A program made the position numbers and the translations under genes. DNA of 64,000 nt from Elusimicrobiota bacterium. GTDB taxonomy: Bacteria > Elusimicrobiota > Elusimicrobia > UBA1565 > UBA9628. The notes beneath the pieces were generated by a model. The model searched no databases, had not been told where the DNA came from, and was given only the letters and a program-made list of their open reading frames with translations. Shown in pieces: positions 74 to 38,520 of the stretch. Position 1 is the first letter of the stretch. Each line of letters opens with the position of its first letter. Location: NCBI GenBank assembly GCA_030696455.1, contig JAUYSH010000042.1, forward strand, positions 1-64,000, in the 5' to 3' direction.

Positions 74-3000
74 ATGCGCTTGAACCGGCGCGCGGCTAAG
101 GCGGCGGGACTTCTCTCGGCCCTGCTCGCTTTCGTTCCGGCCGCGTACGCGGAGACCGAAGGCATGCTCGGCTACGGCCGCGTCGTCCCTGCGCCGACCG
201 TGCGCACCTTCTCCGGCGGCAACTGGGGCAATGAGGCCACCGGTTTGGCGGACTCCGCCGATCCGGGCGTCATCCAGTGGTTGAGGACGGCCGCGGCGCC
301 GTCCTGGAGCGCGCGCGCCGGCTACAAAGCGACCGTCTCCATCGACCATTTGGGCAACCTCACGATGCAGATTTACGACGGCGCCAACTGGATCGACATG
401 CAGCGCGTCATCTTGAGCCAGACCGGCCTGGCGCAGTGGCAGTGGGCGGACGTGACCTGGGTCGGCGACAAGGCGCTTGTGACCTTCAGCCGCAACGTGA
501 CCACGGCCAACCAACAGCTCGGCTTCTACACTTGGGACGCCGGTTGGAGCGGCCAGGGCCTGACGGGCTACACGGCCACGCAGGTGGCGCGCTCGGTGCG
601 CCTGGCGTCGTCTCCGGTTTATGTCTCGAGCAAGGCCGTGGTCTCGGTTCAAAACGCCGCCGGCGGCGTGGCGTCGCGCGGCTGGCACGGCACCGACTGG
701 ATGGCGACCTCGTTCGTCAACGCGACCGTGGAGAGCATCGGCAACTACCGCGGTTTCGATGTGGCCTTCACCTCCGACATCGCGCGCGTCGTTACGGGTT
801 CGGCCGACGCCTTGGACCATGACGCCTGGAACATGACCACGGGGGCGTGGTCGAGTCCCGCCGCTACCCCCGACTTCGATCCAGGCAACAACAGTACCTG
901 GTATTGGGTTCGTCTCGCGGCCGACCCTCACAGCGACTCGAATGGACGCATGATTCTCCTCACTTGGAACGAGGACAACGACATCGCGGTCGGCGTCTGG
1001 GACAACGGCTGGAAAGCGACCGGCGCCAGCGGCGATGTTTCGTTCAACGACACGCAGATCGAGACGAACGCGCAAAATCCGCTCAACCAGCTCGGCGATG
1101 TGGCCTGGCAAACCGACTCGGGCGGGACGCGCAAGGCCGTGCTCGCCTGGGCGCGCGCCAGCGAACAGCGTCCCGTATACCGGACCTACACGCCGGGCAC
1201 CGGCTGGAGCAACGCGGCGTTCGCGCCGACGGTGTCCTCCAACATCCGCGCGGTCCGCGTGTTCTGCGACATCGACACCAACGAGTTGTTCCTGTTCACG
1301 GTCAACAACGCGGGGCAACTCAATGCGGTGCAAGGCGTAGGGGACGGCACCGACCTCAACGGCGGTACGAACGAACTGATCAGCGGCTACATGACCCGGC
1401 CCATTTTGCCGACGACGACCAGCGACCCTCGCCAGGCCTTCGACGCGACCGACGGTCCCATGGTCTCCTACGGTAAAGCCTCCGACTTTCCTTATATCAG
1501 GAACTTCAACGGCACCACCTTCGCCGGGGAGACCTCGGCGCCCAACCTGGGCGGGACGCCGCGGCACATCGTCATCCAGTCCAATCCGACGCGCAACGAG
1601 AAGGTTCTCGGAGCCATCGGCAACGACGGCTTCATCCGCTTTATCGTCTACAACGGAGTCAGCGGCACCTGGGGCAACCAAAGCGTTTGGCCCTTGCCCG
1701 CGGGCTTGGCCATCGGCAACGACACGGACACCAACAACCAGGATCGCTACCGGGGTTTCGACATCGCGTTCGAGCGTTCGAGCGGCGACGCCATCGTCGT
1801 TTTTTTCGCCGGCTCGGAGAAACCTTATTATGACCGCTGGAACGGCACGAGTTGGCAGGGCGCTTCCGAGATCACGGGCTGGGTGACCGATGCGACCCCG
1901 CGGTACCCTTTCTGGATCAAACTGGCGGCGAACCCCAATCCGTCAAGCGAAGAGATCATCGCGGTGGCCGCGCACGCGCCCAATCCGACCTTCACGGCTC
2001 CCGGGGCCGACGATGTGAAGCTGCGCGCCATGGTCTGGAACGGCTCGACCTGGGGTTCGGCCCGTGAGCACGAGGCGGGCCTGGAGACCATCGCGACCCA
2101 GGCTTTCGATGTGGTTTACGAGTCCACTTATCCTTTCCGCGGCATGGTGGGTTGGGCCAACCGCGCAGACGAGACTCTGCGTTATAACCTTTGGATCAGC
2201 ACGGCGATCGCCGGCGCGCACTGGTATTACGCCACCTTCAACGCGTCGGGTGACCTTCAGGGCGGCGGCAACTCGAACACCAACATTTGGGTGCGCCTCT
2301 CCGCGGAACCGATCAGCAACCGCATCGCGGTGGCGGTTCTCAGTGACGGATTGGACGATCTGTCCATGGCGACCTTGGATCTGCCCGACACTTTCGGCAA
2401 CCTGGCCACGGTCGATGCCAATAACATCCCGACGCAGGTCAATGTTTATTTCCGTCCGTTCGACATGGCCTGGGAGCAGGCGGGCGGCGGCGGCCTGGTT
2501 TTCGCCTACGCCGATAATAATGCCCTGTTGCGATATCGGCGTTTTACGGCGAGCTTGGCCGGAGAGTTGAGCGCCGAGTCCGTGGGTACGGGCTTCGTCG
2601 CCCGCGGCGTGCAGATGGAGGCGGACCCTTACTCCAACAACATCCGCACCATCGTCACCGCCTCCGATTACTCGCTGCAACTGCAGAACTGGTCGGGGGC
2701 GGCGTGGAGCGTGCTGTTCAGCCCCACGCCCAAGATCATGTTGGGCGAGGAAGGCGCTTCCCCGCCGACCTTCGCTCCATTTTATTTCACGCACTCGCGC
2801 GACTTCACCCGACCGGTGTCCGTCGTCCAAAATCCGGTCAACAATGCCCATTACGTGACCGGCCAGCCCGCGTCGATCTCAGGCACCGCCAACGACGACC
2901 TCGTCGGCGACGGAAAAAATGTCTCCGGCCTGGTGCGGGTCAATGTCATCATCCGGGACATGAGCCTGCCCAACGAGTACTACCAGGTCGGCGCGGGCTG

Positions 3001-6000
3001 GGTGACCACGGTGACGCCCATCCGCAATCTTGCGACCGGCCTCAACAATTGGTCCATCGGCGGCCTGGGCGCCATCTGGACCAACGGCCGCACTTACCGG
3101 ATCCAGTCCGAGGCGGTCGACCGCGAGGGCAACACGCAGGCCGTGCTCTCGCAGGTGGATTTCGTCTTCGACACCTCGCGCCCGACCGGCGTGATCGTCC
3201 ATCCGCGGACGCAGGCCGGCTTCGAGGGCTACTATCGCGGCTTCCAGCTGGCCACCGTGTCGGGGACCGCGGGAGACACGCCGCCCGGTCTGGTGTCGAG
3301 CCTCGTGTTCAACTTGCGGCGCGAGTTGCCGACGGGCGTCTTCAACTGGTGGAACCGCGAGACGGAGACCTGGCAGGGCTCCGAGATCTACTACTCGACG
3401 GTGGCCTGCGGCATCAACTGCTGGAACTCGGGCACCGGCGTCTGGAAGTCGACGATGCCCGCCGCGGCCTGGACCGACGGCGCCACCTACTACCTCGGGT
3501 TGAACGTTCAGGACCGGGCCGGCAACTGGCACCTCACGGCCACCACGAACACCTTCGTCGTCGATGAGACGACGCCCACCGTGACGGTGGGCCTGCCCGG
3601 CGTGGAGGAAGGCGTGTACCGCGGCTTCAGCCAAATCACCGGCCTGTCCGCCGACGACTTCCAGCTGCGCATGAGCTCGGTCTCCATCCGCGACCTGGGC
3701 ACCGGCAACTGCTGGGGCGGCGCGGCCTTCAACCAGGGCTGCCCGTTCTGGATCAACAGCGCGACGACGCACGCGTGGTCGTATCCCTTCGCGTCGGGGG
3801 TCTTCAACAACGCCCGCATCGAGATCTCGGCCAGGGCCCAGGACGCCGCGGGCAATCTCACGGCGACGCCGACGACCCGCATCTTCCGTGTGGACAGCAC
3901 GACGCCGACGACCACCGTCGCGGTGCCCGTCTCCAACTCCACGCGCACGACTTTGACCTTGATCACGGGCCTCGCGACCGACAACAGCAACGGCTTCCTC
4001 GAGGGCGTGAAGCTGCGCATCTTCCGGCCGAAGGACGGCCTGTATTGGACCGGCGCCGGCTGGGGCGGCCAGACCGAGATCAACGCCAACGACACGCGCG
4101 ACGGCAACTCCAGCTTCGCCGACCCGACGGAGACCTTCTCGCAGGCCTGGAGCCTGCCGTTCAACGACGTGAACTGGGGCGCCAACAAGGAGGGCACGGC
4201 GACGCCCTACACCCCGGACGAGATCAGCGGCTCGTCGTTCACGATCATCGTGACCGCGCGCGACCGGGCCCGCGACGCGAACAACGCCCTGCAGCCGCAC
4301 GAGTTCGACTGGACCACGGTGAGCCAGCACCGCTTCTGGTGGGACGTGGTCAAGCCGACGACCACCGTGGATTTCCCGGGGCACCTGGGTACGCTCGGCC
4401 AGGGGGCCACGACCTTCCACGGCGGCAAGTACGACGCCCATAGCGGCGTCAACCGCGTCGAGTACCAGCTCCAGCGCCAGTCCGACGGCCTGTTCTGGCT
4501 CGGCGGCACGAACTGGGGTTCGATGCCCGCGAACTGGCCCGACGCCCAGCTGTGGGCGTCGTCCTGGACCTTCACCAGCCCGGCCTTCGCTCCGTCGGAC
4601 TCGGGCATCTCCTATGTGATGTACACGCGCGCGTGCGACAACGGCGGCGTGCTGGCCGACACGGACTGCGCCTCGCCGACCAAGCTCGCCAACGTGCAGA
4701 CGGACTGGACGGTGGGCGTCGACTCCGTGACGTTCGCCGTCGACGCGGTCAATCCCCTCTCGGGCGTGACGGTGCCCAACCAGAACCAGATCAACCGCCT
4801 GCCCACGATCTCCGGCACGGCGACGGACTTCTCGGCGATCGCGCTGACCGAGGTCGCGATCGCGAGCAGCGCCGGCGGCTCCTGCGCGGGCGGCTCCCCG
4901 GACGGCACCTGCCGCTGGTGGAGCCACGCGAATTCGAACTGGGTCTCCTTCGCCACCTTCACGAACACGACGGTGCAGGGCTCGCCGTGGTCGTACACGG
5001 TGCCCGGGGCGATCGGCTTCGTGGACGGCCGCGATTATCAGATCATCCCCCGCGCGCGGGACTTGGTCGCCAACCAGGCCGAGGGCACGCCCCGCACCTT
5101 CACCTGGGATGTCACGGCGCCCTTGGGCAACCTGACCGTCCCGTCGAGCGGCACCGCGGTCACCGCGCTCAACGCCATCTCGGGCACGGCGTCGGACGTC
5201 GCGCCCGGCCTGCCCAACCAAGCCGAGATCTATATCCGTCGCGTCGGAACTCCCTTATATTGGGACCCCAACGGCGTGGCCGGCGCCGCGGGCCAGTTCA
5301 ACCCGTCGGGCGCCGTGATCTGGTTCCTGCTGGCCGACAGCCCGTCGGACGGGCTGTGGACCTACAACAGCTCGCCGGTGCCCTGGACCAACGGCCTTTA
5401 CTACGAGATGAGCACGCGGATCCGCGACTTCGCGACCAACGAGACCGGCCAGCCCTCGCCCGGCACGCCCGGCGCCGGCGCGCTGCCGACGCCGGTGTTC
5501 TTCGACCTCGACCGCCCCACGGCGACCATCGACAACATCGTCAACGCTTCTTTCGTCAGCGCGGTCGCCGCGGCCTCGGGCAAGGCGTCGGATATCGGCA
5601 CGGGGCTCAACGGAGGGCGCGTCTCGAATGTCTACCTGCATGTATACCGCCAGGGCCTCAACCAGACCTGGAATTGGAACACGACCACCTGGGTGGCGGG
5701 CGACCAGCAATCCGCCATCGCCGACCCCTCTTCTCAGCCCAACTTCTGGAAGTCGGTCCCCTATACGCCGGACCCCGTGGACCCCTCGAGCGGGACCTGG
5801 TCGGAGCCGCTGGCCTTCCTGGCGGGGCAGTCCGGCGAGACCTTCCGCGTCGTCGCGCGCGCCCGGGACTGGGCCAACTCGATGCAGGTCACACCCTCGA
5901 CCGTGACCTTCACGCTCGACGAGTATCAGGCCTCGCCGGAGCGGCCGAGCGCCACGGTCGCCGCGCCGGTCGACGGGCTCCACACGCGCCCGATCTTCGC

Positions 6001-33000: not shown

Positions 33001-36000
33001 CGGCACCTTCCCGGCGCCGACGCTCGAGACGGTCATCGGCGTCAACCCGGCCGGCACGGTCGAGCCCGTGTGGCTCGTGAGCTCCACCCAGGGCCTGCCC
33101 TCGCCCGCGGCCGGCGCGACGGCGTACATGCTCATCGACGGCGAGATCGTCGGCTACCGCGGCTTCAGCCCGGGCAGCAGCGGCATCATCGATGTCATCC
33201 GCGGCTACCTTAACACCACGCCCGCGGCGCACTCCACCGGCACCTACCTGGCGCCGCAGATCAGCCAGGGCCAGACCAACCTCGCGGCCCTGCGCCTCGA
33301 TCTGTGGTCCTCGCAGTTCCAGGTCCAGCTCAGCGAGATCCGCTTCAACCGCTCCCTGCCGCTCGGCCTCAACGGCGACGATCCCGACCTGTCGTCGGTG
33401 AAGATCTACAAGACCAACGACGGGGTCTTCCACCGCGACGCCGCGAGCGGGCTCAATGTCAGCGATGTCCTGCTCGGTTCGTCTTACTTCGGGGGGACGA
33501 CGAGCGGCCAGGCGCACATCGCGATCAACGACCCGCAGATCGGCTCGCCGGGCTACACCTTGATCACCGCGACGCCGACGGTGCTTTATGTCGCGATGGA
33601 TGTGTCCGTGGCGGCCCGGTTCTCGCACCCGAGCTTGAATCCGCCCAATGAGGTCACGGGCGTCCGCGTCGCCGACCCCTCGCGCTTCACGCTCACCCCG
33701 GCCAACGCCGGCCACGCGACGGTGTTCGTGGGCACGACTCCGGTCGCCAGCCCGACCTTCGTCGTGGCCCCCACGGTCAACACCGTCAACGTCGAGTTCG
33801 ACCAGGTCTCCGGCAACACCGCCTTCCAGAACGCGAGGAACGTGGCGATGCTGCGTCTGCGCATGCGCACGGACCGCAACACCGCGATCGTGACCCGGGT
33901 CCAGGTGGACCGCACCGGCGCCGCGGGCGCGCTGGACAGCGACGTCAACGTCATCAAGCTCTGGAAGGACGCCGACGGCAACGGCAACTTCACGATCGCC
34001 GACTCGACGGCGGGGCCGCTCGGGGACTACCCGCACCTGGTGTCCTTCGGCAACGAGACCTTCAGCTCCGCGACCGTCACGCTCGCGCTCAAGAAGCCGA
34101 TCATGGTCAGCACGACCGCGGCGGACTACTTCCTGACCTACGACATCTCCCAGTTCGCCGCGGAGGGCAACAAGCTCGGCGCGGCCATCCTGAGCCCGAC
34201 GTACTTCACGGTGCAGGTGCCCAACGCCGTCTCCTTCTCGACGCCGACCTTCTCCTCCAACCCGCTGCTCACGGTCGCCAAGACCGTCTCGCAGGTGACG
34301 CTCGGCACCAGCGACATCGCCGCCGGCATCGGCGGCGTCACCCAGGCGCAGTCCAACGTCGGCATGCTGCGCCTGAACCTCGTCACCGACATCGCGCTGG
34401 CGCCGTGGCGCTCCCTGCGCGTCGAGCGCGGCGGCGGCTCGCAGGACACGAACAAGCCGCTGGGCCGCAACACGAACGTCAAGTTCATCCGGATCTTCAA
34501 GGACATCAACCAGAACGACCTGCTGGACGGCAGCGACATCAACATCTCGGAAGTGAACACGACCCTCGTGACCGCGCTGTCGAGCAGCGTCGTCACGGTG
34601 CCGTTCGACCTCGTCGTGGCCTCGACGAAGGGCTTCCCCGTGGACAACTCCGGCGCGCCCGTGGGCGGCAAGATCTTCGTCAACAACGCCGAGCTGATGA
34701 CGTTCTCCGGCCCCGGCTGCCAGACGGCCTTCACCCCGGGCGTGGACAACATCACCGGCAAGCCGTGTCTGAGCATCAGCTCGCGCGGGGACCTGCTCGG
34801 CACCGCGGCCAGCCCGGCGCTCAACCACTCGGTCGGCGTGAGCGTGCGGAAGGTCGACGCGTTCAACCAGGGCAACGACTCCGACGTCCAGGCGCTCATC
34901 ACGCTGAACGCCGACCAGTTCGTCGGGCCGACGGCCCAGGCCTTCTTCGTGGCCTACGACATCGGCGACGCGGCCGTGCAGAACGACCTCATCAACCTGA
35001 CGATCCGCGACACCTCCTGGATCGGGATGCCGCGCGGCGACGCCGTGCAGCCGCTCCTGCTCACGGGCGTGACGCGCATCAACCCGCTGGGCACCGGGAG
35101 CACGAGCTATCCGTACGTCGGCAGCAACGTGGCGATCAACCCGATCACCCTCACCGTGTCCGGAGTGTCGTTGGCCCCCGCCGGCGCCGGCCAGGGCGAC
35201 GCCAATGTCCCCGTTCTGCAGATCGACATGAAGACGAGCTCGGACTTCGTCTCGATCGCCCAGCTCCGGCTCCGGCAGACCGGCACGATCCTGACCTCGT
35301 TGGTCGCCCTGACCGGCGACGGCGACGCGTCTTTCGTCAAGATCTGGCTCGACAACGGCGACCGCGTGTTCACCTCGAACCTCGACACTTTGCTCGGCGC
35401 GGTCGCGGTCTCGACCTCCGGCCCGTTCTCCAACGGCGTCGCGCTCGTCAGCCTCGTCCAGGGCGCGATCCCTTACGTGCGCGTGACGACGGGCACGGCG
35501 ACCTTCTTCGTCAGCGCGGACATCGGCTTCACCGACCGTGCCGGCGGGACGACCTTGACGCACACGCTCGGCTTCACGCTCGCGGGCTTCTCCGACATCA
35601 TCGCCCCCGACGGCGCGCCCATCGTGGCCGCCGCGGATCCCATCAAGCAGCCGCCGCTCGCCTCGAAGACTTTGCTCATCGCGCCGCTGACCGTGCCCGG
35701 CGTCTCCGTGAGCTCGATGACGCCGCCGATCATCGTCACGCGCGCCGTCACCGGCGTGCCGGGCGAGGCCGTCGGGTATCCGGCCTACGCGCTGGTCGAC
35801 TCCGTCAATTGCAACAACGGCAAGGACCCGGTCAACCCGCGCAACAACATCTGTTACGACGGCGCCGCCAACCCGAGGCCCGACCAGACGAAGTGGATGT
35901 GCCAGAACGGCCTGCCGTGGCCGTTGAACTGCGCCGGCTCCCCGCCGCTCATCGACGTCAACGGCGACGGCTCTCCCGACAACTTCAAGGTCGGCGAGAG

Positions 36001-37468
36001 CACCCGCCCGACCTCGATTTCGCTCCTCGGCGACGGCAACCCGACGACCGACCTGACCGGCACCGGCATACTCGACGTGGACATCAACAAGGACGGCATC
36101 GTCGACCTCGTGCTTTTCGCGCCGGGCTCGAACAAGCCGCAGTTCCGCATCGGCCTCGACATCGCCGACCAGGGGAACCTCGCCAAGACCGCGCCCGACC
36201 CCGGCCAAGGCCTGGCTCCCTCGGCCTGGGCCCGCAGCGCCGGCTCGCTCTCCTTCAACCTGCCCATCACGGGAACCTCCGGCTACTACCAGGTCGCCGC
36301 CGGCGCCTATTACGACGACCCCATCGGCATCACGCACAAATGGTCCTCGGTCACGGCCGTCGATGTCGCCCGCCTCTCGGCCGCCGCGTTCGGCGTCCTG
36401 GCGGGCAGCGCGCCGATCACCGGCGCCACGCTCACGAACCTGGTGCTCGAGATCCCCAATGTCACGCGCCTGACCCAGGTTCTGACGCAGGAGACGACGT
36501 TCTTCACCGTCGTGAGCAACACCGGCCTGCTGGGCAAGACCGACGGCTCGGGCCTGGTCTACATCGGCTCGGAGATCATGCGCGTCAAGCGCGGCCCGAC
36601 GGCCAACACCTTCGAGGTCATCTTCCAGGACGGCGACCCCGCCCCGTTCAACGGCCGCGGCCTGCGCGGCTCGGCGCCGATCATCCACACCAGCGGCGAG
36701 CTCGTCTCCGACGCCGGCGCCATCCTCTTCGCGCAGTTCGTCTCGGCTACGGGCGCCACCTCGCCGCCTCAGCCCATGTGGGTGTACCGCGTGGACCCTT
36801 CGGCTCCGACCACCCCCGGCGCGGCGATCCCGCTCGAGCAAGGCAAGCCGACCTACGCGGTCAAGTGGGCCGCGTCGCAGCAGTTCGTCTCCGGCGTGTC
36901 CGCCTACGAGGTGCAGGAGCGCGGCGGCGACCCGAAGAACCTGTCTGAAACGGTGATCTGGCGCACGATCAACGTCATCCCGTCGCGGCTGACCACCTAC
37001 AACGTGGGCGACCCGAGCTTCGCGGGCGAGGGCGCGCGCAAGCCGGGACATTTCTTCAGCTACCGGGTCCGCGCGATCAGCGGCGCCGGCGTGGCCTCGA
37101 GCTGGTCGCCGCTGGCCGCGAGCGCGGGCACCGGCATCACCTCCGAGATCATCACCGGCGTCAGCAACTTCCCCAACCCCTTCGACTCGCGCAAGGGCGG
37201 AGACCTCGGCCTGACGAAGATCACCTACATCCTCAACAGCGACTCCGACGTGACGATCACGATCTACGACGCTTTGGGCTACCTGGTCAAGACCATCTCC
37301 TGCCCGCCCGGCTCCGAGGGCGGCAAGCTCGGCCAGAACTTCGTCCCGTGGAACGGCCGCAACGACGCCGGCGTCAACGTCTCCAAGGGCGGCTACACGG
37401 CCCGCATCAAGGTCAAGGCGTCCGGCGGCTCGGCCACGGTCATCCGCAAGATCGGCGTGATCCACTGA
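74..37468 (+). CDS. Giant multi-domain exported repeat protein (12,464 aa)
   Basis: A single uninterrupted frame begins with a signal peptide (two Arg-rich turns, a hydrophobic LLSALLAFV core and an A-Y-A cleavage site near residue 26). The order of parts is: W-rich propeller-like repeats (about 27-910); 54 tandem Ig-like units of about 128 residues (911-7829) with the cores ISGTAxD, YWNGxxW, RAxDxAGN and FxYDxxxP; about 16 units with a VxDxFxN signature (7830-10070); eight units with Asp/Asn-rich Ca-loop-like motifs (10070-11890); a linker with EF-hand-like DVNGDG and DINKDG; and a FlgD-like Ig domain (about 12360-12464). The architecture suggests an exported, fibre-like adhesin, S-layer or predation protein, but no function is shown. 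The absence of any stop over 37 kb, and codon bias matching the neighbours, argue that it is expressed. No catalytic domain was recognised. The next gene has its own promoter-like sequence. Confidence 0.93.
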   Translation: MRLNRRAAKAAGLLSALLAFVPAAYAETEGMLGYGRVVPAPTVRTFSGGNWGNEATGLADSADPGVIQWLRTAAAPSWSARAGYKATVSIDHLGNLTMQIYDGANWIDMQRVILSQTGLAQWQWADVTWVGDKALVTFSRNVTTANQQLGFYTWDAGWSGQGLTGYTATQVARSVRLASSPVYVSSKAVVSVQNAAGGVASRGWHGTDWMATSFVNATVESIGNYRGFDVAFTSDIARVVTGSADALDHDAWNMTTGAWSSPAATPDFDPGNNSTWYWVRLAADPHSDSNGRMILLTWNEDNDIAVGVWDNGWKATGASGDVSFNDTQIETNAQNPLNQLGDVAWQTDSGGTRKAVLAWARASEQRPVYRTYTPGTGWSNAAFAPTVSSNIRAVRVFCDIDTNELFLFTVNNAGQLNAVQGVGDGTDLNGGTNELISGYMTRPILPTTTSDPRQAFDATDGPMVSYGKASDFPYIRNFNGTTFAGETSAPNLGGTPRHIVIQSNPTRNEKVLGAIGNDGFIRFIVYNGVSGTWGNQSVWPLPAGLAIGNDTDTNNQDRYRGFDIAFERSSGDAIVVFFAGSEKPYYDRWNGTSWQGASEITGWVTDATPRYPFWIKLAANPNPSSEEIIAVAAHAPNPTFTAPGADDVKLRAMVWNGSTWGSAREHEAGLETIATQAFDVVYESTYPFRGMVGWANRADETLRYNLWISTAIAGAHWYYATFNASGDLQGGGNSNTNIWVRLSAEPISNRIAVAVLSDGLDDLSMATLDLPDTFGNLATVDANNIPTQVNVYFRPFDMAWEQAGGGGLVFAYADNNALLRYRRFTASLAGELSAESVGTGFVARGVQMEADPYSNNIRTIVTASDYSLQLQNWSGAAWSVLFSPTPKIMLGEEGASPPTFAPFYFTHSRDFTRPVSVVQNPVNNAHYVTGQPASISGTANDDLVGDGKNVSGLVRVNVIIRDMSLPNEYYQVGAGWVTTVTPIRNLATGLNNWSIGGLGAIWTNGRTYRIQSEAVDREGNTQAVLSQVDFVFDTSRPTGVIVHPRTQAGFEGYYRGFQLATVSGTAGDTPPGLVSSLVFNLRRELPTGVFNWWNRETETWQGSEIYYSTVACGINCWNSGTGVWKSTMPAAAWTDGATYYLGLNVQDRAGNWHLTATTNTFVVDETTPTVTVGLPGVEEGVYRGFSQITGLSADDFQLRMSSVSIRDLGTGNCWGGAAFNQGCPFWINSATTHAWSYPFASGVFNNARIEISARAQDAAGNLTATPTTRIFRVDSTTPTTTVAVPVSNSTRTTLTLITGLATDNSNGFLEGVKLRIFRPKDGLYWTGAGWGGQTEINANDTRDGNSSFADPTETFSQAWSLPFNDVNWGANKEGTATPYTPDEISGSSFTIIVTARDRARDANNALQPHEFDWTTVSQHRFWWDVVKPTTTVDFPGHLGTLGQGATTFHGGKYDAHSGVNRVEYQLQRQSDGLFWLGGTNWGSMPANWPDAQLWASSWTFTSPAFAPSDSGISYVMYTRACDNGGVLADTDCASPTKLANVQTDWTVGVDSVTFAVDAVNPLSGVTVPNQNQINRLPTISGTATDFSAIALTEVAIASSAGGSCAGGSPDGTCRWWSHANSNWVSFATFTNTTVQGSPWSYTVPGAIGFVDGRDYQIIPRARDLVANQAEGTPRTFTWDVTAPLGNLTVPSSGTAVTALNAISGTASDVAPGLPNQAEIYIRRVGTPLYWDPNGVAGAAGQFNPSGAVIWFLLADSPSDGLWTYNSSPVPWTNGLYYEMSTRIRDFATNETGQPSPGTPGAGALPTPVFFDLDRPTATIDNIVNASFVSAVAAASGKASDIGTGLNGGRVSNVYLHVYRQGLNQTWNWNTTTWVAGDQQSAIADPSSQPNFWKSVPYTPDPVDPSSGTWSEPLAFLAGQSGETFRVVARARDWANSMQVTPSTVTFTLDEYQASPERPSATVAAPVDGLHTRPIFAFASGSSLDNTGGQIAAVRVSLRRFNGPVNYWTGLAWSAVEPVPWPNAAAADGNFNSDSEGWQFAMPPLAEWTDNVAYDVRAQAVDAAGNFSVIQWSTKNFVYDTFKPTATITLPINAGYISQTGFVSGGAVDTGAGVVDFVQVRVRRASDGRYLDLSVGPNGDWVVGGPEIWNNATIGGAGPWTFSLSSAAWETGINYEAQARGIDRATNMQVTYSSVTFSADFQVPSSVVQVPIHATTPDNITDITGTAVDAGPSGVGNVFVAYWRASPANWWNRTTMAFDLPDAAVPPDAPGLASNYWVKASTNNTPTVAWVVTGASTPSFVGGVTYHVLSAVSDRATNLEGRPSAAALGTNRISFTAAFPASQIVKPDATDPHFRATLATLSGTINTVATGAEVRIRDITNNLYWNGGGWAAPIVFIPATVGGLDWSYTIPAVNFTSLNRYSVESRATGVPVEAPPKGPREFYIDDGVPTAGVSMPDVLYKVSLPALSGTAADDADALAGAQKTVYFRLRRTELALPQYWNPTVSTYTSSALDCLSGVDATCLVPNVGALPPNTFAVTHASFTDSTAYEANRAYVVSLIVKDRAGNGTTVNKNFTWDVGAPVSGMTLPNHSNPIRSMGSPQITGTATDNFLVHATSVAVRSLRNGLCYNPGTLFFTETCPYWLATSSNPAADWTFSDANLNSALGAFSTYYTILSRAADVAGNEQSGFTANVSSRTFLFDIVPPVSAITYPAHLAAYRGSQVSGVFNPFAGNASDPGAPWNAGLRRVEIRLSYVAAPDTWYWQSTQFSSGTGVSNGGWFATTDNLWSSIGAITWRAADTSYRLESRAEDATFLKDGTAVGNIGTPATVGGDIVDFIVDDTIPTVLLQQPSGANVGALTMISGTALGDGAGLSEVALRIQRTNGGPLEDWTGSSWTALNTHYSTATLGGVFGNQTWTYDDVVGAFVSGEQYRLFLRVTDRAGNVRAAPGGGDLTFVYDSVAPNLAINFPYSPPTVPPYSNRAESSRQVILASGTVSDPGAVVSGVTQVWVALSSGSAEDVWWNDTTRLFDTSQPTVFWAAQVYVGGSDWTYQPAEFATTAFQDGVIYRLHVRARDAAGNWTNNVTNPVLSAAAQSQSLRYDLSRPTSTVSVPVNGTKINSLPAFSGAMTETGAGGSGVLRSYLAVRHDDGGSAANGWWNWGTGAFDGAISDPPPAPPGPAWTQVSSTPVQNLGTLSWSTATPAGMLESSATYRAVVVALDQATNIQQNPAAAGAGAAFRYDTQAPTATLTNPPYAAFVNAAGLGLIAGTATDETRGASGLQTIQILLKLQNAEAYWNGGTTGVFASDYDNTGSKFGQWRTVPTGFNWSLAFPPMAPAESRALRLWVRATDQAGNQSATPSNGQLDANLNADGTPARSFIYDNTPPTTLVTAPAPFVNFAPATITGTAEDAFPAFNPSGVIDVRLRMARSTGEYWDLFGSTWTASNAFSNTSLTGLNPWTFSAFNGAFSDGYRYDVNSRGEDAAGNLETGFGTYSFIVDRSTPLSSIEWPHASAFVSSAAVVIRGMADDFYCTQQPALCNASRNSQSGLTATGVTVAVAEVVVSTNWWDGANFASAVPVWLPASFAGASSGTWTFPLPAGKLTSTKVYRAVVRAQDRAGNLDIVTSTNSFIYDAAAPVSLATSPVLFNGSISGIYGTASDASPGALSVVRLTIRKTAPLNEYWNGVAWQGAPVELSSGVVGAFIAGTTYGWYYDTSATNFTNASTYTVTARAVDQAGNVEPAHGSHDIEFYLEAPTPTVVLTQPTAPDLKHYGPNSAGGVTTLIGTGQNLRLTNGVRVALQRLSEPTSYWYDPTASWTNDPSTYTAINVIAGTPQTWSLGLNAPYVVDNASYSLTVTPVNAAGLLGTAVSRTFVFDKTAPVSAFTNPAVVACAGADACLSALPAIAGTSADTTNTNPPSVQFTGVKLRLKNSVTGDYWNGTAFAPGLSEMSIEAPNFSGAGPYAWSTTTLAGAGLLDGEDYTLFAYAADRAGNAQSVEAQMAQFTFVYDTSPPVGILSQPSSGQVYLNLATISGTSVDPGGANPNNKFSGVQRVELQIRNPQSDICWNHGASAFDLSCAAPASFFTATGINPWTYSNANLTTALVTGGHYTITARAVDFAGNVQSVYTVPVSSRTLQVDKVAPATAFTKPLSGVSYRPSQLNGGSALTGNASDAEAMLYPPPLNDAIQSVDTVIWYLEGGTSYYYTGVVDLFPSGNGTKFSSNTIESAQWKPVTTGTATWSSLFTDADWISDKPYRAKSRARDRARDAGGAIVGNLGTTFVQNVSLVDFKVDATPPVSTVHTPAGTGFLHDLETIAGTSNSDLSLANTYYLRVWYVVGTSSIYWNGNAWNTGLPDVPTQLPVEVAGSTGVVAWTFPGSMPGYTFPTITQPDNTAYGIAIHARDNAGNLEVPTTAQFILDQVGPNVIISTPMQTSQNYGSARPLVTLRGTSSDSPAGVLRVDLEIKQVSDTPNLFWDGFVWTAVSSVVPAISTNPWTYAAPAWIDNKQYQIRAKAVDMAANDSGFGLAVPFKYDVNKPSTTILVPNQPFYPLSWAGTPLSGTALDWVHYPSTQAKSGLTRVEIQIHDNVANLYWQGNGWNPAPAFRAVSTTTLDPSSWTYPPSNPPGDTLPGWNDNNDYTIDLRATDRTGNIENLVSYTFTFDSFAPTTTITAPLDDNYATAFALSSGTYSSVPAGIAQVLVAVRNPLGSFWDGTNFVSFNPATCWLPAQIHPSSWSFTNAALAANINTTQSVPITYEFFVRGVDGAGNDNRGSGQPTAGTGTRLRVDYFAPTSGFTHPLDNAALTGGVAPLTGTAGDQALAATKGIGLFEVRLKAVRIDSVNARRYWDGVSWNAADQGFNLPTTLGGAPQSVQTFASQGAAIGDNNFEDSYRYQVTARAEDLLGFQDPVYSTTTFIVDRATPTASLLRPMHGNFISTATLSLSSGTFSEPVGPGGITSGLAEVRLQIEDISDQATVPHAIPGGNQRFWNGTAWQAAPISTTAVVYSSSWTLFNFPTGADIVRGDPSPNGRQYAIRAIASDLAGNAGSFPNYFVARATISFDGTPPVSGVTTPPDGLDTTNLGTITGTAFDPLVNASSSDVRAVYVSIQNDPGNLGDPNNSAYWNALSNTWVLGTPVWNPTVYNAGSGVWQFVSGTIDSNLFVGSYYVIHSSAVDNAGNTTPLPLAGQPAYSKVRFQPPPAATAITGPTSLQYYNQLPGAAGTANGVTTSIEIKLRRFDTDQCWGGGATGFGWVNCLPADGTNTRVVYPAAGNWTYPPGGENMPDWSLVNNTTFSLQSVGINYAAVRESPPQITQFFIDRSSPVSSVSFPANGAFLASTPTLSGATLDPFGINGAGVKTVKITLQRLDNNFYWNQLVSTWTAAVAQSTAAHQAGPNTWSFSSIVSTLTWQNGLSYTLAVFSEDKSLGSANGNTEVPAAPITFNFDATLPTVAIQAPAAAPLRQGQVTLATISGTAAATAPNTIRKVQVRVQQQAGSIYANPGVPPLSFSQLNGDLAWFDATNTVDWTNWHTSTGFLYTNGSTYTIVARAENQSGTYTVPYASTTIVYDTLAPLSGVSVPANLAIVPSLPAITGTAADLPVGNPGVVSVMRARLKRLSDNTYWDGFSTWNAAIQTLGPGQGVSVYPSTWAFSAINIPTAGDLTSSVSYYLTVSGIDDAAGGGNIEIWDSPRGSTFTFDNTPPLASIVSPINDSFRNAVPSFSGISTDDVLVSTVQLSLQNASIVAPNCYNPAVNAFNAACPAWFGAQGTNANWTFAFPVQPWLQANQYVLRSSATDVATNIQTALSSAAFTYDRNASTAGVTVPSAGALGPFLGDITGTGLDAPAGISSLRLAISSGAGLGNWYNGSVFTGGAPTFFATSAYVVGAPDTWAWAYPVLTDGQLYTLRARTVDFASNQRDQDFNFRFDSSSPTASVADPVQGAFKTASFTISGGSSDFDPDGAGPLGGTVISTVAVSIERLGTGLCYTLGVGFNAPCPNFIPAEGAPGAWTFTALPNPYLTSESYTVVARALDAAGNTQDVFTPATSSNTFTYDTTVPVVSIITPIPGRVKAVAGGLVGTGTAAAGVPTGLALVDLRVRREGVNVFADPNSGLNFSQADGDLAWFNAATVSVPPWTNWTVSSAVPFTGLDGSTFSFIARSLNKAGVYSTTYATSTFVYDSRPPETGVTVPANGAFINTLASLTGTAVDFPLINPGITASVGVRFKRLSDGNFWTGFGTWSGTLATMGAAQGVQVFPSSWVVSPANLPTPADLTSGVSYYVTTSGLDDATPGGNPELYDSPRGSTFTFDNTVPVTGIVSPVDGSFRNTVAAVNGSGFDAVSISTVQLSLENTSIAAPNCYNAALNVFNAACPAWFAAQGSTIAWSYAFPVQPWTQAQSYVLRSSATDVAANAQLTLSSAAFTYDRNAATAAVTVPGLGALGPFMGNIAGTGLDAPAGVSSLRLAVSSGAGLGNWYDGAVFTGVSPVFFTTSAYVYGAPDTWSWSYPTLTDGQLYTMRVRTLDRAGNQRDQDASFRFDSSSPTAVVTNPVQNAFKTGNFAIAGNSSDPDPDGAGPRAGTLVSTVAVSIERLGSGMCYTFGVGFNAPCPNYIPAFGAPGAWTFTPAPNPYITGETYIVSVRAGDNAGNTQDVFTPATSSNTFIYNTAVPTVGIAYPAQPRHRDLLTLSGTANDAIPTSLAKVQVRVRRLSAPARYADPLDFGTPHAFSVLVANADSAWFDAATVSNPPWTNWTLSSGVPFVSSEQYSIEARALNQAGTYSTIYASHTLIFDTNPPLTTVLLPVHLSTVSALPLLTGASADQPAGNGGLVSDIRLRLVRLDLNQFWTGSGWSGSVSQLTKDEGVEIHVSSWTLSTNLPAIGQLTNGVSYYLTTSGLDDAAPPTGNAEAFNDPVRASTFTVDLVGPVAGFTAPSNLSVISTLAKIRGTAADALAGVSTAGQIEIAIAEDGPNNGCWNGTIAGGTFTLAGCPIYYPITGGDRGGEFSQVSTFWEVNAPPPTTQFGYKVWVRARDNATPSGNVTAPATISSITFVYNTSLPAAAILVPPSLPAPGGNLAAAFTVSGTASDTFGITGTSVAYQEADTNMYWDGVSTFSSVTPVWTNAPFAGITPSFTFSTPAPVPAASTGRNYNLYVKAINSAGLEQAASANTVKWDTTKPAASVNLPLNNAYGRTLPSVTGVASDPGAAASGVGGTQIQIKRVLASDCWGGGAWGVNCTTASSWLTPIAGTPWTKNTQLPPANNLPGGLEDGKEYEISARAFDLAGNTQTATTANTFRFDVSSPSVAAVLPAHGSRYASLTMISGTAADQLPGEFNVTFPRVRVHDIPLNQYWVAGTGWVTSAFPGFPDLWNTAIDSTSVAGTFTWHYDAAAGAPALSANWPDRDNGLRVEVRALDAAGNYTIASSTFSFDATRPGSYVLYPPMDGVTYSTMAVIGGTSTDNTSPITDVGIKMWYVTGPTTYYWSPATPHWNPIDSGFWSIGGSAGPAATINPWAYNSTQNPDFANPGTLNYAWKEGTHDGGNGKLFHIITRGVDGAGNAQTVFSTRTFRFDNVPPFSQPVAPIHNAAYRTLTTLSGSSTDDVGSVVSLSVSIYDEEAARYFDGTGFGSIPEVWLPVLPANLHQTSWTFTNGSLAYLTEHHYVIKSSATDNVGNVQSAIGSARFLFETDPPNSTVVNPSNLTTYDDTKILIGGSTDPNFLGGITGKGSGVVPTLGWHQGAIDIAVFRDTAPLVAGGPVPYGGWDSTGYFWNGSTWVASSGGPLFVPATFVDAFGNWQYDKLTCPRPSPTDPCWVRGDPYVAWTRATDNAGNQQVVIQDGPRFFISGVAQSFEIVTSSNPSTVGNDITVTVTARDGPGGTGGVASSYSGTVRFLMVDGAGGPESSDDDLVSDSLHGLPKDFPFTTGTLGENGVKAFTIRIRKAGSRLLRVQQVDNAALFGILNLTAHRKTGTQVQLIADCDPLGQQPGPGVVTPGSQGRTGTPRTRTAGQTVAYCARVTDEFYNVDTDSTTTVYVTDSDVNNESVSPDQYLVIPGGSVGFNRVFVTADVVGQVVQSTGSGVFPNASNPATSVVVIGQPADRLVALLPNETRVQGKFSVPPFGKTLGATDEVQAGSTISLRVFAVDPFYNDDASVAFPVTARLWSDSFTGSFTQSLQGGATTFVFTPVVAGTQSFAAQSASLPAATSNYYTPTPARVWWAPPVKFQMLVAGQTAGPGKPPYDANPTTGGRAVAAPALLTAGVTTAITINLVDPYFNVVKATTPFMPLVASVTKPLAQLDFQNDPNIQLRGLSPSPFQRTLVAGTTSFSFIPVTRNAAMQLRVTDTNLTGTFYSTDTVSNAAVQANTPLSLLVQMPGETYAEGTVAGKTGVPSTLTAGDSYGVTVRAVDLYNNLANDGRSVRLTTNDPYAVVPAPQSLALGQTPFAGFLPSAATGNLVVTGVDNDVEVPALTGQSVSGITVVPGAPDRMIVVLNGETLVPGKTVAPFGVSGIPMQSTAGVFFGANVYATDARYNVVNTVAKPAIVMTSNDPFVPALGSVAMAAGAASVPSILLRTAGNRTLTAADGGGGGPALSNGVSNTLGVLPNSPTRLRTMTPVETRVPGSTANGRTGAAYTAQAGFVFNATVDITDAFWNLTPGVTQQIRLVADDPFAVIVPTTQVVTTSATYSVTLKRAGTTILRSELVDGLSYPSLTADDSTPITVMPGTPSRLLTIMPGETFSQGSPTGKGGTPIAQSAGTGFSVQVGVVDNFFNLVPGRAADALLTLPTDPYAPSVSTAAVNTAAGFTPPMAVSLRRAATGHYLVASDFGASGLSSDPQSSTFTVLPAAPMGLQLLLAGQIPVPGSGDYPNGGVTGVISTPTAGVPLLGTVNLVDRYMNVSPAGARPLVYLNTNDAYDIDPATAALIGGSLPVGPILVTKSSAAVVRVSPQDSAPDQVCTANAPTNICLASAPAAVSVPFRVFASTAIGLQVVLPGETQKPGKCDYLPSVVCRLLDPAEGAPGKDGTPTPYVVTSPAMNADVWLVDQFYNPVSDLAVGPNQDTNPPAVMPTVRLRFPYDTAAGVPPSAALILGNRQFNFTPLTAATAYTVVAGTTSASASTWANASSAEFPVYPGASHHMHWAGLPATITAGTAFSGTLSVHDQFHNTLSTGPNAYNKNVTFIAETFGGNQDPAFIPSSNVTFSSSTDQGVRALTSFAQLKKAGVRTLRAQETGNAAVNSEVAGFTTPTTITVTPAAPDSMKAGPADDTSVSAGSLVPNSPGNKAITGQLTDAFDNPITAGASVYIEIVGVFGSTGSLALDYGAGQINVGVSTIVLSDALGRVGVNPQIFYYVSSTAGDHARIWVGTTTAQPGLAPFIAAKKNVTGALVTVGGLPSQLVFVSSPTAATVGVNDVAGAGGRYVIQRLDDFNNVTRQGDTPVILDLPAGDKAIHTARGYALGLFGAAGDYGFRDDSNTNFITGFTIFDGFSGAETPFRFHSRMSSYSGASPAANTAEAARPGRWTVQVFLPGPSLALTSQLRMDPDSVRTVGFANPLRTEVAGKVVDFASTFAKFTPQLQDIFSNPVVATQTYVVTLATVTRAASRHNDYVAFSRSSDSVSGSRVSAPFFMASTQTVDIPIGQYQATFYYLDTNATTNYSLVGGTKPVIQLSATGLFSSQQGVFILPDSIDRVAISKGAGQTLLAGTTSLPFFMETRDFYGNPSPVRPGSDFGLGYVQLGLASNSSGQVAFSTGGAPGGFVDSTAVVYLPVNQSATSFYLIDTLLTVGGGSHTLSAAGLTYPTWEVGYATYGVNPGPPAQIGWATPPRRLIAGTTLQYELGVPTNTVVAAQLLDQYGNVTSTSSTFIIRYNTILTQDLYAGIDPTAVIVATAPSGFWTPLFGNQIDVIIPGGAGLTQAPFYLWGRLSGGATVQAQAQFGGSPVFPQITQVHQITPGRATYLTVNHPYTASNPLKVGVPGTLSIKARDLFGNVASGDPLNGNVYAGAVNFGSSGSTTTVTLLDLTNSATYHNFTAGEAGVFNNLLLQDNLIETLKVSATDYQNPSVFGFTNDISRSGLPVNPALRSDPDVVLAGILVTPTDFAPESVPPTNLPPPSKQAFGITRPSLSQGDGNVPTSPDPIPMLRMDMRVFPAGQPLIAELQSLRVQSRSEGNFDNTKVTEVGLWLDDPTAQNGRFDPVTDMFVASAAYNGAGAWFFGSGLFAQTPLNTLPPPVLGNMTINSAQSKFLFVTVRISSYGYANGELPADFGLEIPNPNDITLAPGNQVGVAANNFPVKTSTTSVVREPAQINVLTSTAEDYDINAWWQPPFLSLSSYSYVNQGTLNVGVMQLKMWTDGFTGALSKITVNHSGSGLDTAISKVKLYLDTQSDQVTTPGDGIFNFSIDRFVAETTFPVGETRLAAINIPNPTGVNGTIDVTTRTYYLVFDYDPSAEPGQTHGLSLSAANVVPLAGNGVVKTFSPIASTQVVIQATPDQVVLTDWNRQGSSATVPTDAIPSKVTQNDKNQPVAKITLRVNSGAAEWSGLKLDRWVPSMMLTGVGGLPGAPNSLLALNNKASDVTNVKVWVDKDGDGLLSVSSDSQVSPLNAVVHNFPTAPLAIPLYATGTLTNATIPVLGIATMFPSDNPFPNDQLSRLVLNDEQTDESLKEVVYCYGLDQANNQFTNCDRAREGTAARDYAAGVLLSGPARVPINSLIGGGGQTIDTSKKDYFVTFDISPLATVSPQANVGIAIPTTGYFKITSPKTMSTLNVGLQPPGRTISFVANLSEYPDLVRVSAIDSVDSALGPFLQQKSTVAVAVINSIQTDVADASWRWILVYATGTATLGGSIAGDVDETQLWYDTNNDGIFNATNDLLVGTGTFGNYQGLPLVSQINLYPARKIVTPGLAPQAQRYFIAYRMSATAQPVDPFTFQPRTLGVDLRPTSLPSLSPVTDNPFLNSLALPNVYDPSSPMPFGGKVRPIIAAPQVMSVKATPYFSTSSGTFPAPTLETVIGVNPAGTVEPVWLVSSTQGLPSPAAGATAYMLIDGEIVGYRGFSPGSSGIIDVIRGYLNTTPAAHSTGTYLAPQISQGQTNLAALRLDLWSSQFQVQLSEIRFNRSLPLGLNGDDPDLSSVKIYKTNDGVFHRDAASGLNVSDVLLGSSYFGGTTSGQAHIAINDPQIGSPGYTLITATPTVLYVAMDVSVAARFSHPSLNPPNEVTGVRVADPSRFTLTPANAGHATVFVGTTPVASPTFVVAPTVNTVNVEFDQVSGNTAFQNARNVAMLRLRMRTDRNTAIVTRVQVDRTGAAGALDSDVNVIKLWKDADGNGNFTIADSTAGPLGDYPHLVSFGNETFSSATVTLALKKPIMVSTTAADYFLTYDISQFAAEGNKLGAAILSPTYFTVQVPNAVSFSTPTFSSNPLLTVAKTVSQVTLGTSDIAAGIGGVTQAQSNVGMLRLNLVTDIALAPWRSLRVERGGGSQDTNKPLGRNTNVKFIRIFKDINQNDLLDGSDINISEVNTTLVTALSSSVVTVPFDLVVASTKGFPVDNSGAPVGGKIFVNNAELMTFSGPGCQTAFTPGVDNITGKPCLSISSRGDLLGTAASPALNHSVGVSVRKVDAFNQGNDSDVQALITLNADQFVGPTAQAFFVAYDIGDAAVQNDLINLTIRDTSWIGMPRGDAVQPLLLTGVTRINPLGTGSTSYPYVGSNVAINPITLTVSGVSLAPAGAGQGDANVPVLQIDMKTSSDFVSIAQLRLRQTGTILTSLVALTGDGDASFVKIWLDNGDRVFTSNLDTLLGAVAVSTSGPFSNGVALVSLVQGAIPYVRVTTGTATFFVSADIGFTDRAGGTTLTHTLGFTLAGFSDIIAPDGAPIVAAADPIKQPPLASKTLLIAPLTVPGVSVSSMTPPIIVTRAVTGVPGEAVGYPAYALVDSVNCNNGKDPVNPRNNICYDGAANPRPDQTKWMCQNGLPWPLNCAGSPPLIDVNGDGSPDNFKVGESTRPTSISLLGDGNPTTDLTGTGILDVDINKDGIVDLVLFAPGSNKPQFRIGLDIADQGNLAKTAPDPGQGLAPSAWARSAGSLSFNLPITGTSGYYQVAAGAYYDDPIGITHKWSSVTAVDVARLSAAAFGVLAGSAPITGATLTNLVLEIPNVTRLTQVLTQETTFFTVVSNTGLLGKTDGSGLVYIGSEIMRVKRGPTANTFEVIFQDGDPAPFNGRGLRGSAPIIHTSGELVSDAGAILFAQFVSATGATSPPQPMWVYRVDPSAPTTPGAAIPLEQGKPTYAVKWAASQQFVSGVSAYEVQERGGDPKNLSETVIWRTINVIPSRLTTYNVGDPSFAGEGARKPGHFFSYRVRAISGAGVASSWSPLAASAGTGITSEIITGVSNFPNPFDSRKGGDLGLTKITYILNSDSDVTITIYDALGYLVKTISCPPGSEGGKLGQNFVPWNGRNDAGVNVSKGGYTARIKVKASGGSATVIRKIGVIH
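152..2803 (+). repeat. N-terminal W-rich propeller-like repeat region of giant protein
   Basis: Two half-motifs alternate here. One is F-D-[VIM]-[AV]-[FYW], seen near residues 227, 562, 678 and 796. The other is [IV]-[RK]-L-[AS]-A-[DNE]-P followed by a hydrophobic strand and W-x-G-x-x-W. The spacing and the alternating strand pattern resemble beta-propeller blades, but no named family was recognised. It is clearly distinct from the Ig array that follows. Confidence 0.55.
16391..18208 (+). repeat. Five-Ig-unit block, copy A
   Basis: Residues 5440-6045, units 36-40 of the array. The block runs from FDATLP to just before YDTTVP. Diagnostic strings recur in the same order in copy B, for example FNAACPAWF, GLGNWY, GVGFNAPCPN and TPATSSNTF. 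Confidence 0.85.
18209..20032 (+). repeat. Five-Ig-unit block, copy B
   Basis: Residues 6046-6653, units 41-45. Each unit matches the unit five places earlier far better than its neighbours, at protein and nucleotide level. For example, the tract encoding PNCYN..FNAACPAWF is nearly identical at about 17295 and 19120. The repeat period is 1,818 then 1,824 bases. Confidence 0.85.
20033..20797 (+). repeat. Partial third copy of the five-unit block (two units)
   Basis: Residues 6654-6908, units 46-47. They resemble units 36-37 and 41-42 (shared PPWTNW, NQAGTYST, GVSYYLTTSGLDDA) but are more diverged. The following unit no longer matches the block, so the copy is truncated or has decayed. Confidence 0.7.
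23561..30270 (+). repeat. About 16 VxDxFxN-type Ig-like units in giant ORF
   Basis: I counted about 16 strands of the form V-x-[AVL]-x-D-x-[FY]-[YFW]-N (for example FAVDPFYN, VGVVDNFFN, VWLVDQFYN, KARDLFGN), typical of bacterial Big/invasin-like extracellular domains. In seven successive units the strand is preceded by a [ML]-x-P-[GV]-E-T-x-x-[PE]-G segment and an A-G turn. Unit spacing is about 130-140 residues. Confidence 0.7.
30271..35730 (+). repeat. Eight large Ca-loop-containing units in giant ORF
   Basis: Eight units of about 200-250 residues share Q-G-x-x-N-x-x-[VML]-x-x-[LI], a hydrophobic strand, then [VI]-K-[LIV]-[WY]-x-D-x-[ND]-x-[DN]-G-x-[FL] and finish with Y-F-[VL]-x-[FY]-D-[IV]-S. 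The D-x-N-x-D-G spacing (DKDGDG, DTNNDG, DADGNG) resembles dockerin or EF-hand calcium loops. Calcium binding is inferred. Confidence 0.6.
37146..37468 (+). other. C-terminal FlgD-like Ig domain of giant protein
   Basis: The last 105 residues contain the N-F-P-N-P-F motif, T-K-I-T-Y-x-L, V-T-I-T-I-Y-D-A-L-G-Y-L-V and a W-N-G-R-N-D-A-G-x-x-V-S-K-G-x-Y core. This matches the FlgD-like Ig/T9SS-type C-terminal module common at the end of large exported proteins in Gram-negative phyla. It may act in sorting or anchoring, but no secretion system genes are in this window. Confidence 0.8.
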
Positions 37469-37491
37469 AGCCGCGCCGTCGCCGATTCCTC

Positions 37492-37521
37492 TTGAAGGCG
37501 GGGGGGGCGACTCGCTAGAAT
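37492..37521 (+). promoter_or_regulatory. Sigma70-like promoter, likely leaderless, for the HEAT-repeat gene
   Basis: TTGAAG (37492-37497) and TAGAAT (37516-37521) are separated by 18 bases. Only six bases lie between the -10 box and the GTG at 37528, so transcription would start at or next to the start codon. There is no Shine-Dalgarno sequence before this GTG. Confidence 0.6.
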
Positions 37522-37527
37522 CACCGC

Positions 37528-38520
37528 GTGACCCTCCGCCCGCTGTTCGCGGCCGTAGTCCTACTGGCATCCTCTATAGCGCTCGCGCAGGGCCCCGACC
37601 CGCTCAAGGCGGCCCTCGCGGGGGCCAAGGCCTCCGAGCCGATGACCCGCCGCCAGGCCGCGGAGGAGCTCGGGCGGTCGCGCAATCCCGCCGCGGTGCC
37701 CGCGCTCGAGAAGCTCCTCGGCGACGCCCACCCGTTCGTGCGCGCGACCGCGTGCGAAGCCCTGGGGCAGCTGCGCTCGGCCGGCTCGGTGCCCATGCTC
37801 GCGGCGGTGCTGTCCGGCGACGCCGATCCGCGCGTGCGCCAGGCGGCGGCGGTCGCCTTCGTCTACATCGGCGACGGCGCCGCGGCCGGCGCCCTGATGG
37901 GCGCGCTGAAGGACGGGGCCGCGCCGGTGCGCCACGCGGCGATGCGCGCGCTCGGGAAGCTGCGCGCCGCGGCCGCCGTCGAGGCGCTCGCGGCGGTCCT
38001 GACCGATCCCGACGCCTCCGCGCGGAAGGTCGCGGTGTCCGCTCTCGGTGAGATCGCCTCCAAGGAGGCCGTCCCGGCCCTCTCCTCCGCGCTGTCCGAC
38101 ACCGACGCGGGGGTCCGCGCGGAGGCGGCCAAGTCGCTCGGCCTCATCGCCGCTCCCGGCGCGGCCCCGTTCCTCGCGTCCGCCCTCAAGGACGGCGACG
38201 CCGGGGTGCGCGTTCAGGCCGCCGCCGCGCTGGCGAAGGCGGGGGATGACTCGGGCCTTCCCGTCGCGTACGCCGCCCTCAAGAGCGCGGATGCGTCGAC
38301 GCGCCAGCAGGCGGCTTCGACCGTCGGGCTCGTGGGCGACGCCAAGGGGCTCGCCGCGCTGGACGCCGCCCGGGCCGTGGAGAAGGACGCCAACACCCAG
38401 GGCATGATGGACTACGCGCGCGCGCAGCTTCGCGCCCGGCTGGGTCTTTCGGAGTCGTCGAAGGCGCCCGCGAAGAAGGCTCAGCCCAAGAAGTCCTCGA
38501 CGCCCAAGGAGTCACATTGA
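37528..38520 (+). CDS. Exported HEAT-repeat (PBS lyase-type) protein
   Basis: A 330-residue protein from a GTG start with an N-terminal signal peptide (LFAAVVLLASSIALAQG). It is followed by about eight tandem 31-residue helical repeats with the HEAT/PBS-lyase signature A-V-P-A-L-x-x-[LA]-L-x-D-x-[DA]-x-x-V-R-x-x-A-[AC]-x-A-L-G. The tail is Lys/Ser/Pro-rich. HEAT repeats form a solenoid for protein binding, so this is probably a periplasmic scaffold or partner protein rather than an enzyme. Its stop overlaps the TTG start of the cyclase gene (TTGA), so the two are translationally coupled and may work together. Confidence 0.85.
   Translation: MTLRPLFAAVVLLASSIALAQGPDPLKAALAGAKASEPMTRRQAAEELGRSRNPAAVPALEKLLGDAHPFVRATACEALGQLRSAGSVPMLAAVLSGDADPRVRQAAAVAFVYIGDGAAAGALMGALKDGAAPVRHAAMRALGKLRAAAAVEALAAVLTDPDASARKVAVSALGEIASKEAVPALSSALSDTDAGVRAEAAKSLGLIAAPGAAPFLASALKDGDAGVRVQAAAALAKAGDDSGLPVAYAALKSADASTRQQAASTVGLVGDAKGLAALDAARAVEKDANTQGMMDYARAQLRARLGLSESSKAPAKKAQPKKSSTPKESH

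Follow-up and report, generated by a model that had tools for sequence, protein, structure and literature searches.

The window analysed here is a 64,000-bp stretch of DNA, the first 64,000 bp of a 110,836-bp contig in an Elusimicrobiota genome (G000; 4.01 Mb, 97.9% complete), which we compared with 58 relatives (the other G numbers; C numbers denote contigs). The features discussed below are as follows.

74 to 37468, plus strand: gene for a giant exported protein of 12,464 aa, recognised by its open reading frame, orthologues, GC3, repeats, and dN/dS
74 to 151, plus strand: predicted Sec signal peptide, aa 1-26 (MRLNRRAAKAAGLLSALLAFVPAAYA), by inspection of the sequence only
152 to 2794, plus strand: N-terminal head, aa 27-907, of no known family, also an N-terminal head in G043 and G051
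2795 to 23617, plus strand: 54 tandem Ig-like units of the Big_13/Big_3 type, aa 908-7848 (Pfam and self-built profiles)
23936 to 30253, plus strand: 16 tandem VxDxFxN units, aa 7955-10060, predicted Ig-like sandwiches (profiles and model)
30263 to 35722, plus strand: nine Ca-loop units, aa 10064-11883, predicted all-beta and Ig-like (profiles and model)
36782 to 37141, plus strand: FnIII-like domain, about aa 12237-12356 (gp130/contactin FnIII matches)
37151 to 37465, plus strand: sorting-type C-terminal domain (CTD), aa 12360-12464, FlgD_ig, with seven predicted strands, ending in IRKIGVIH
37528 to 38520, plus strand: HEAT-repeat protein with an apparent signal peptide, the conserved next gene within the same family
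38517 to 40574, plus strand: CHASE2 adenylate/guanylate cyclase, overlapping the HEAT gene, a conserved neighbour

The giant frame stays open for 12,464 codons and its sole stop is the terminal one. An in-frame TAA two codons (6 bases) before the ATG shows that nothing is missing from the 5′ end of the frame, despite the start of the contig 73 bp upstream. A GC-rich imperfect palindrome occupies the very start of the contig (window 3-58) and perhaps caused the assembly to stop there. GC3 ranges from 0.85 to 0.97 along the entire frame, with the lower value in the head (0.85), and in each of the seven regions for which G016, a relative, served as comparison, dN stays below dS, a sign of purifying selection. 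Intact orthologous frames span 11,265 (G016), 11,356 (G013), 12,462 (G012), 14,139 (G029), and 14,030 (G040) codons, and several further ones are interrupted only by contig ends. Judged by these coding statistics and orthologues, the ORF is confirmed as real, being neither a chance frame nor a GC-rich shadow, and the claim of the sequence-only reading that no stop interrupts 37.4 kb holds. Its remark that the gene is among the larger bacterial ORFs is right as to size (12,464 aa), but size alone is not exceptional in this phylum, where proteins of more than 5,000 aa are enriched (PMC11573180). The longest exact repeat within the gene measures 39 nt, which makes the array resolvable with ordinary short reads; this, together with the intact orthologues, led us to reject a misassembly or collapsed repeat as unlikely. 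An apparent segmental duplication of ~608 aa in the Ig array (window 17120 and 18944; aa ~5440-6050 and ~6050-6660) contains the 39-nt repeat. We also discarded an antisense ORF of 5,616 aa (20720-37570) as a GC-rich codon shadow.

The high-identity named homologues are Elusimicrobia MAGs such as NC_groundwater_611, GWA2_66_18, and CP096137. Close homologues of the C-terminus occur in about half of the 58 relatives, and a close giant is absent from five same-genus genomes that are more than 90% complete, so the protein is accessory and not essential. It heads a conserved order of giant, HEAT-repeat protein, CHASE2 cyclase, DUF3307, thiolase, HutH, and HutU (G016, G013, G003, G010, and G029), which G018 shares from the cyclase onward. 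A second HEAT-type gene adjoins the giant upstream in G016, G013, G029, and G010 (Pfam HEAT confirmed for G016). In three of them (G016, G013, and G010) its stop codon runs into the start of the giant gene, which suggests co-translation; the host contig ends where this gene would lie. In G010 (CP096137, a single contig), the giant and neighbouring housekeeping genes carry frameshifts, probably uncorrected long-read indels. We did not accept those in the giant as real, since the thiolase, DUF3307, ALDH, and FTCD genes are disrupted as well. Among hutH, hutU, hutI, and FTCD, the window also encodes two similar exported proteins without HExxH on the minus strand (46105-47742 and 48375-50009).

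From its N-terminus, the giant consists of the signal peptide, a head of ~880 aa, 54 Ig units, 16 VxDxFxN units, nine Ca-loop units, the FnIII-like domain, and a CTD of 105 aa. Self-built profiles delimit the repeat units and tile the protein almost without gaps, bearing out the distinct repeat families seen at first sight for the Ig, VxDxFxN, and Ca-loop blocks. The VxDxFxN profile also picks up parts of the Ig block, as related folds would lead one to expect. Pfam assigns the Ig block to Big_13/Big_3, and a Pfam scan places the VxDxFxN and Ca-loop blocks in no family. A model of aa 9795-10480 (22 homologues, pLDDT 89.6) is all-beta, and its best PDB match is to the Ig-like domains of PrgB (8beg, E 3e-14); from such models, both the VxDxFxN and the Ca-loop blocks are predicted to be Ig-like. 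The modelled folds of the Ig array match the S-layer proteins SbsB and SbsC and mastigonemes, among many others. The "propeller-like" N-terminal part of the sequence-only reading, in contrast, was not confirmed: the head has no Pfam or PDB match. The signal peptide that it placed at one end is visible by inspection (aa 1-26), relatives bearing other heads also start with one, and homologues with the same block order occur in independent Elusimicrobiota assemblies, so that the lack of such homologues, which the sequence-only reading named as grounds for refutation, does not apply. With tandem beta-sandwiches from residue 908 to the end, these observations favour its proposal of one long exported fibre.

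The last 105 residues score above the Pfam cut-off for FlgD_ig, as the FlgD-like label first given to the C-terminus implied. That label is incomplete, however, because the domain is homologous to CTDs encoded beside PorV-family barrels. A role as flagellar FlgD was dismissed: only the Ig part matches, the protein is 12,464 aa long, and no flagellar gene was recognised in the window. The CTD gives weak matches to the PorU, PorZ, and Por_Secre_tail models and, in the PDB, to FlgD and the PorU CTD. Its predicted structure has seven strands within the last ~105 residues, the number known for T9SS CTDs of the RgpB type (PMC4804311, PMC11285876). The model suggests an Ig-like sandwich with the D-x-x-G turn between strands 3 and 4 that is characteristic of T9SS CTDs. 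This turn reads D-x-L-G without exception in the 11 giants aligned first (D110/G113 in A1), with a spacing equal to that of RgpB D696/G699. A Sec signal, seen by inspection, and a CTD at the extreme C-terminus are likewise the combination expected of a T9SS cargo. In its C-terminal position, its predicted seven-stranded Ig-like fold, and its D-x-x-G turn, the domain thus resembles type A CTDs (TIGR04183; RgpB, PorU, PorZ), but its TIGR04183 score of 14.8 bits falls below the curated cut-off of 23. A profile built from 27 CTDs encoded beside PorV-family barrels, with the giants excluded, finds the C-terminus of 13 of 13 giants (E<=1e-14) and nothing else within them; none of 818 other tiles or shuffles matched (best 0.05). 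This homology to PorV-adjacent sorting-type CTDs suggests a route of export and anchoring. The C-terminal region is also the most constant part of the giant, 92% identical to that of G016 compared with 56-80% for the stalk. Elsewhere in the host genome (C106, L145:2815-6306), a 1,164-aa protein has several internal FlgD-like domains, a match to the OmpA-like Lsa66, and a CTD that scores 29.5 bits, above the TIGR04183 cut-off.

Candidate genes for such a route are present in the host genome. A SprA-like protein of ~1,850 aa (C96) has homologues in 54 of the 58 relatives and matches TIGR04189 (Sov/SprA) with E 4.8e-48 and 163 bits; five more distant relatives' proteins match likewise (111-166 bits overall, cut-off 200). 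With both the giant's CTD and the SprA-like protein under their curated cut-offs, neither is a formal family member. The NCBIfam match to the host's SprA-like protein is accompanied by nothing from Pfam and nothing meaningful from a PDB sequence search. Matches to SprA_N pass the cut-off in 12 of 58 genomes, the host not among them, and two giant-bearing genomes, G013 (72% complete) and G038 (95% complete), yielded no SprA match. PorV_fam lies over its cut-off in 20 of 20 genomes, with 32 matches in the host. Of 33 PorV genes examined, 27 stand directly after a CTD gene (11 of 13 in the host, 16 of 20 in G036 and G040). This pairing is far above background, as CTDs stand at only 4 of 451 ORF ends in 105 kb of other host sequence, and one of these four is again beside a PorV gene. 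The giants themselves share the arrangement in sister families, where the profile finds a PorV-family gene shortly downstream in G040, G042, G045, and six further loci; the three giant-adjacent genes examined score over cut-off and are fused to TPR repeats. Within the host's own family, at loci with enough downstream sequence, the giant is followed by the HEAT gene and not by PorV. An alpha-solenoid thus stands beside the giant in both groups, as PorV-TPR at L079, L082, and L093 and as the HEAT protein in the window's family. A second giant in the host genome, with a frame of 5,443 aa and a CTD, has a PorV-family gene directly after it (C22, L162/L144).

Comparison of the giants shows that their N-terminal parts are exchanged. 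The head (aa 27-907) has no full-length match in same-genus genomes, where one marginal partial match was found (G002, E 5e-5), and reappears as the head, again N-terminal, of large G043 and G051 proteins with about 27-32% identity. Same-genus relatives bear an unrelated head that is absent from the host genome. The mismatch continues into the stalk: in residues 2000-3000, identity amounts to 46-56% with another family and ~30% with the host's own genus, which becomes the closest from residue 3000 on. The exchanged part thus comprises the head and Ig aa ~914-3000, the first ~3,000 residues, and in G043 a single frame contains both the head and the distal Ig block. These sequence relationships are most simply explained by recombination of a distal block. 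The exchange between relatives had escaped the sequence-only reading, as had the predicted Ig-like nature of the VxDxFxN and Ca-loop blocks.

We propose, with a probability of roughly 60%, that the giant is a surface-anchored adhesive fibre with a swappable tip that is exported by a type-9-like pathway. Exchange of the head and the distal ~2,000 residues, with conservation of the remaining stalk and above all of the CTD, fits a constant stalk that carries a binding tip. From these comparisons we infer how the giant may be transported and anchored, how far it may reach, and that it may adhere to a target. The Sec signal peptide would take it across the inner membrane, and the CTD, seated on a carrier of the PorV family, would direct it through a Sov/SprA-like translocon of the outer membrane and, remaining uncleaved, retain it there (by analogy with PMC10994853 and PMC9143113). 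Within the SprA pore of Flavobacterium, it is the loops of PorV to which CTDs bind (PMC10994853). The giant adhesin SprB is retained there by SprF, a carrier encoded beside it (PMC9143113). Cleavage of the CTD and attachment to A-LPS are not expected for the giant, since no PorU sortase was found: NF033707 matches only its CTD part, in a search run without a positive-control genome. At ~4 nm per domain, ~80 beta-sandwich domains would form a stalk of roughly 0.3 µm, presumably holding the exchangeable head away from the cell for adhesion.

The closest known parallel is the T9SS adhesin SprB (type B CTD) from Flavobacterium johnsoniae, likewise a giant repetitive surface protein with a Sec signal and a C-terminal sorting domain, and served by a SprA-type translocon (PMC9143113), for which the host has a candidate. 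A putative carrier barrel is encoded next door in the sister families but not in the window's own. The comparison implies neither sequence kinship nor a gliding role, and the carrier is of the PorV family and not PorP/SprF. GldM (TIGR03517) of the T9SS motor was not found in any of the Elusimicrobiota genomes searched, whereas the same search detects it in three of four Bacteroidota. That no PorU sortase was found also sets the giant apart from cargoes with type A CTDs. With PrgB and other Gram-positive Ig-stalk adhesins it shares a tandem Ig-like stalk, as the match to 8beg indicates, but it differs from PrgB in phylum and has 8% sequence identity to it. Adhesins of the PrgB type are anchored to the Gram-positive cell wall.

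The giants described from Omnitrophota and Elusimicrobiota are, like this one, very large and apparently exported (PMC10066038, PMC11573180). In Omnitrophota, a related phylum, and in Elusimicrobia, such proteins have been read as surface weapons of a predatory or parasitic lifestyle (PMC10066038; PMC12057145), and the window's giant might by extension grip or degrade prey envelopes. We consider this unlikely. A fragment of the Aureispira grappling hook does match the C-terminal model (rank 22), amid hundreds of generic FnIII/Ig matches, but family scans of all 12,464 residues detect no hydrolase, lyase, protease, or toxin domain, and adhesion is common to a weapon and a fibre. The Omnitrophota giants described so far carry transmembrane helices or discoidin, laminin, or dockerin domains and are poorly conserved (PMC10066038), whereas the window's giant is conserved across families, all-beta where modelled, and accompanied by a CTD and candidate export genes.

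A tipless coat of the matrix, sheath, or S-layer kind, either released or built up around the cells, would suit the size and repetition of the protein and the SbsB/SbsC and mastigoneme folds among its many matches. The slow evolution of the C-terminal region noted above suggests a conserved partner at that end, however, and exchange is confined to the N-terminal block, which together make a coat decidedly unlikely. More improbable still is a periplasmic or envelope-spanning ruler or scaffold that uses the Sec signal only and carries the FlgD-like domain as a generic Ig fold: the conserved HEAT-repeat and CHASE2 cyclase neighbours and the sub-threshold TIGR04183 score would accord with it, but the CTD groups with those beside PorV-family outer-membrane barrels, the giant adjoins PorV-TPR in sister families, a stalk of ~80 domains far exceeds the periplasm, and distal exchange fits external exposure. 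Least probable is that chimeric metagenome assembly joined the N-terminal ~3,000 residues, as the missing same-genus homologue of residues 27-907, the foreign affinity of residues 2000-3000, the lower GC3 of the head, and the nearby contig start might suggest, given that the junction is in frame inside a homologous array, a single G043 frame likewise joins this head to the distal Ig block, codon usage is continuous, and the alternative head is absent from a 97.9% complete genome.

Beyond the adhesive fibre itself, we tentatively suggest, at somewhat less than even odds, that Elusimicrobiota have a divergent type-9-like system without a GldM motor or PorU sortase, in which many cargoes have their own adjacent PorV-family carrier and the giant would be the largest cargo seen in the host genome. 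T9SS genes have been reported as absent outside the Fibrobacterota-Chlorobiota-Bacteroidota group (2024; PMC11285876), and Elusimicrobiota giants are known as a statistical class (PMC11573180, PMC12057145). The literature searched, with preprints and most subscription papers outside its scope, contained no T9SS-like pathway in Elusimicrobiota, and both type-9-like export and cargo-carrier pairing in the phylum appear to be undescribed. PorV-family genes in its genomes have probably been labelled already by automatic annotation, which is our expectation only. If the proposal is right, the presence of SprA-like, PorV, and CTD components without a recognisable GldM would alter views on the origin and powering of the T9SS, and it would explain how giant proteins are delivered to the surface in an almost uncultured phylum. 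Tip exchange on a conserved stalk would also offer a testable handle on what Elusimicrobiota hosts bind. At three loci (L171 on C87 of the host genome, L192 on C10 of G036, and L204 on C13 of G040), the PorV-family gene follows a gene for a proline-rich protein instead of a CTD gene. No motor gene was recognised on reading the neighbourhood of this pair, and the proline-rich protein is itself a candidate for coupling a GldM-less system to an energy source. It has one N-terminal membrane helix, a TonB-like look, and a conserved GPVWPV end.
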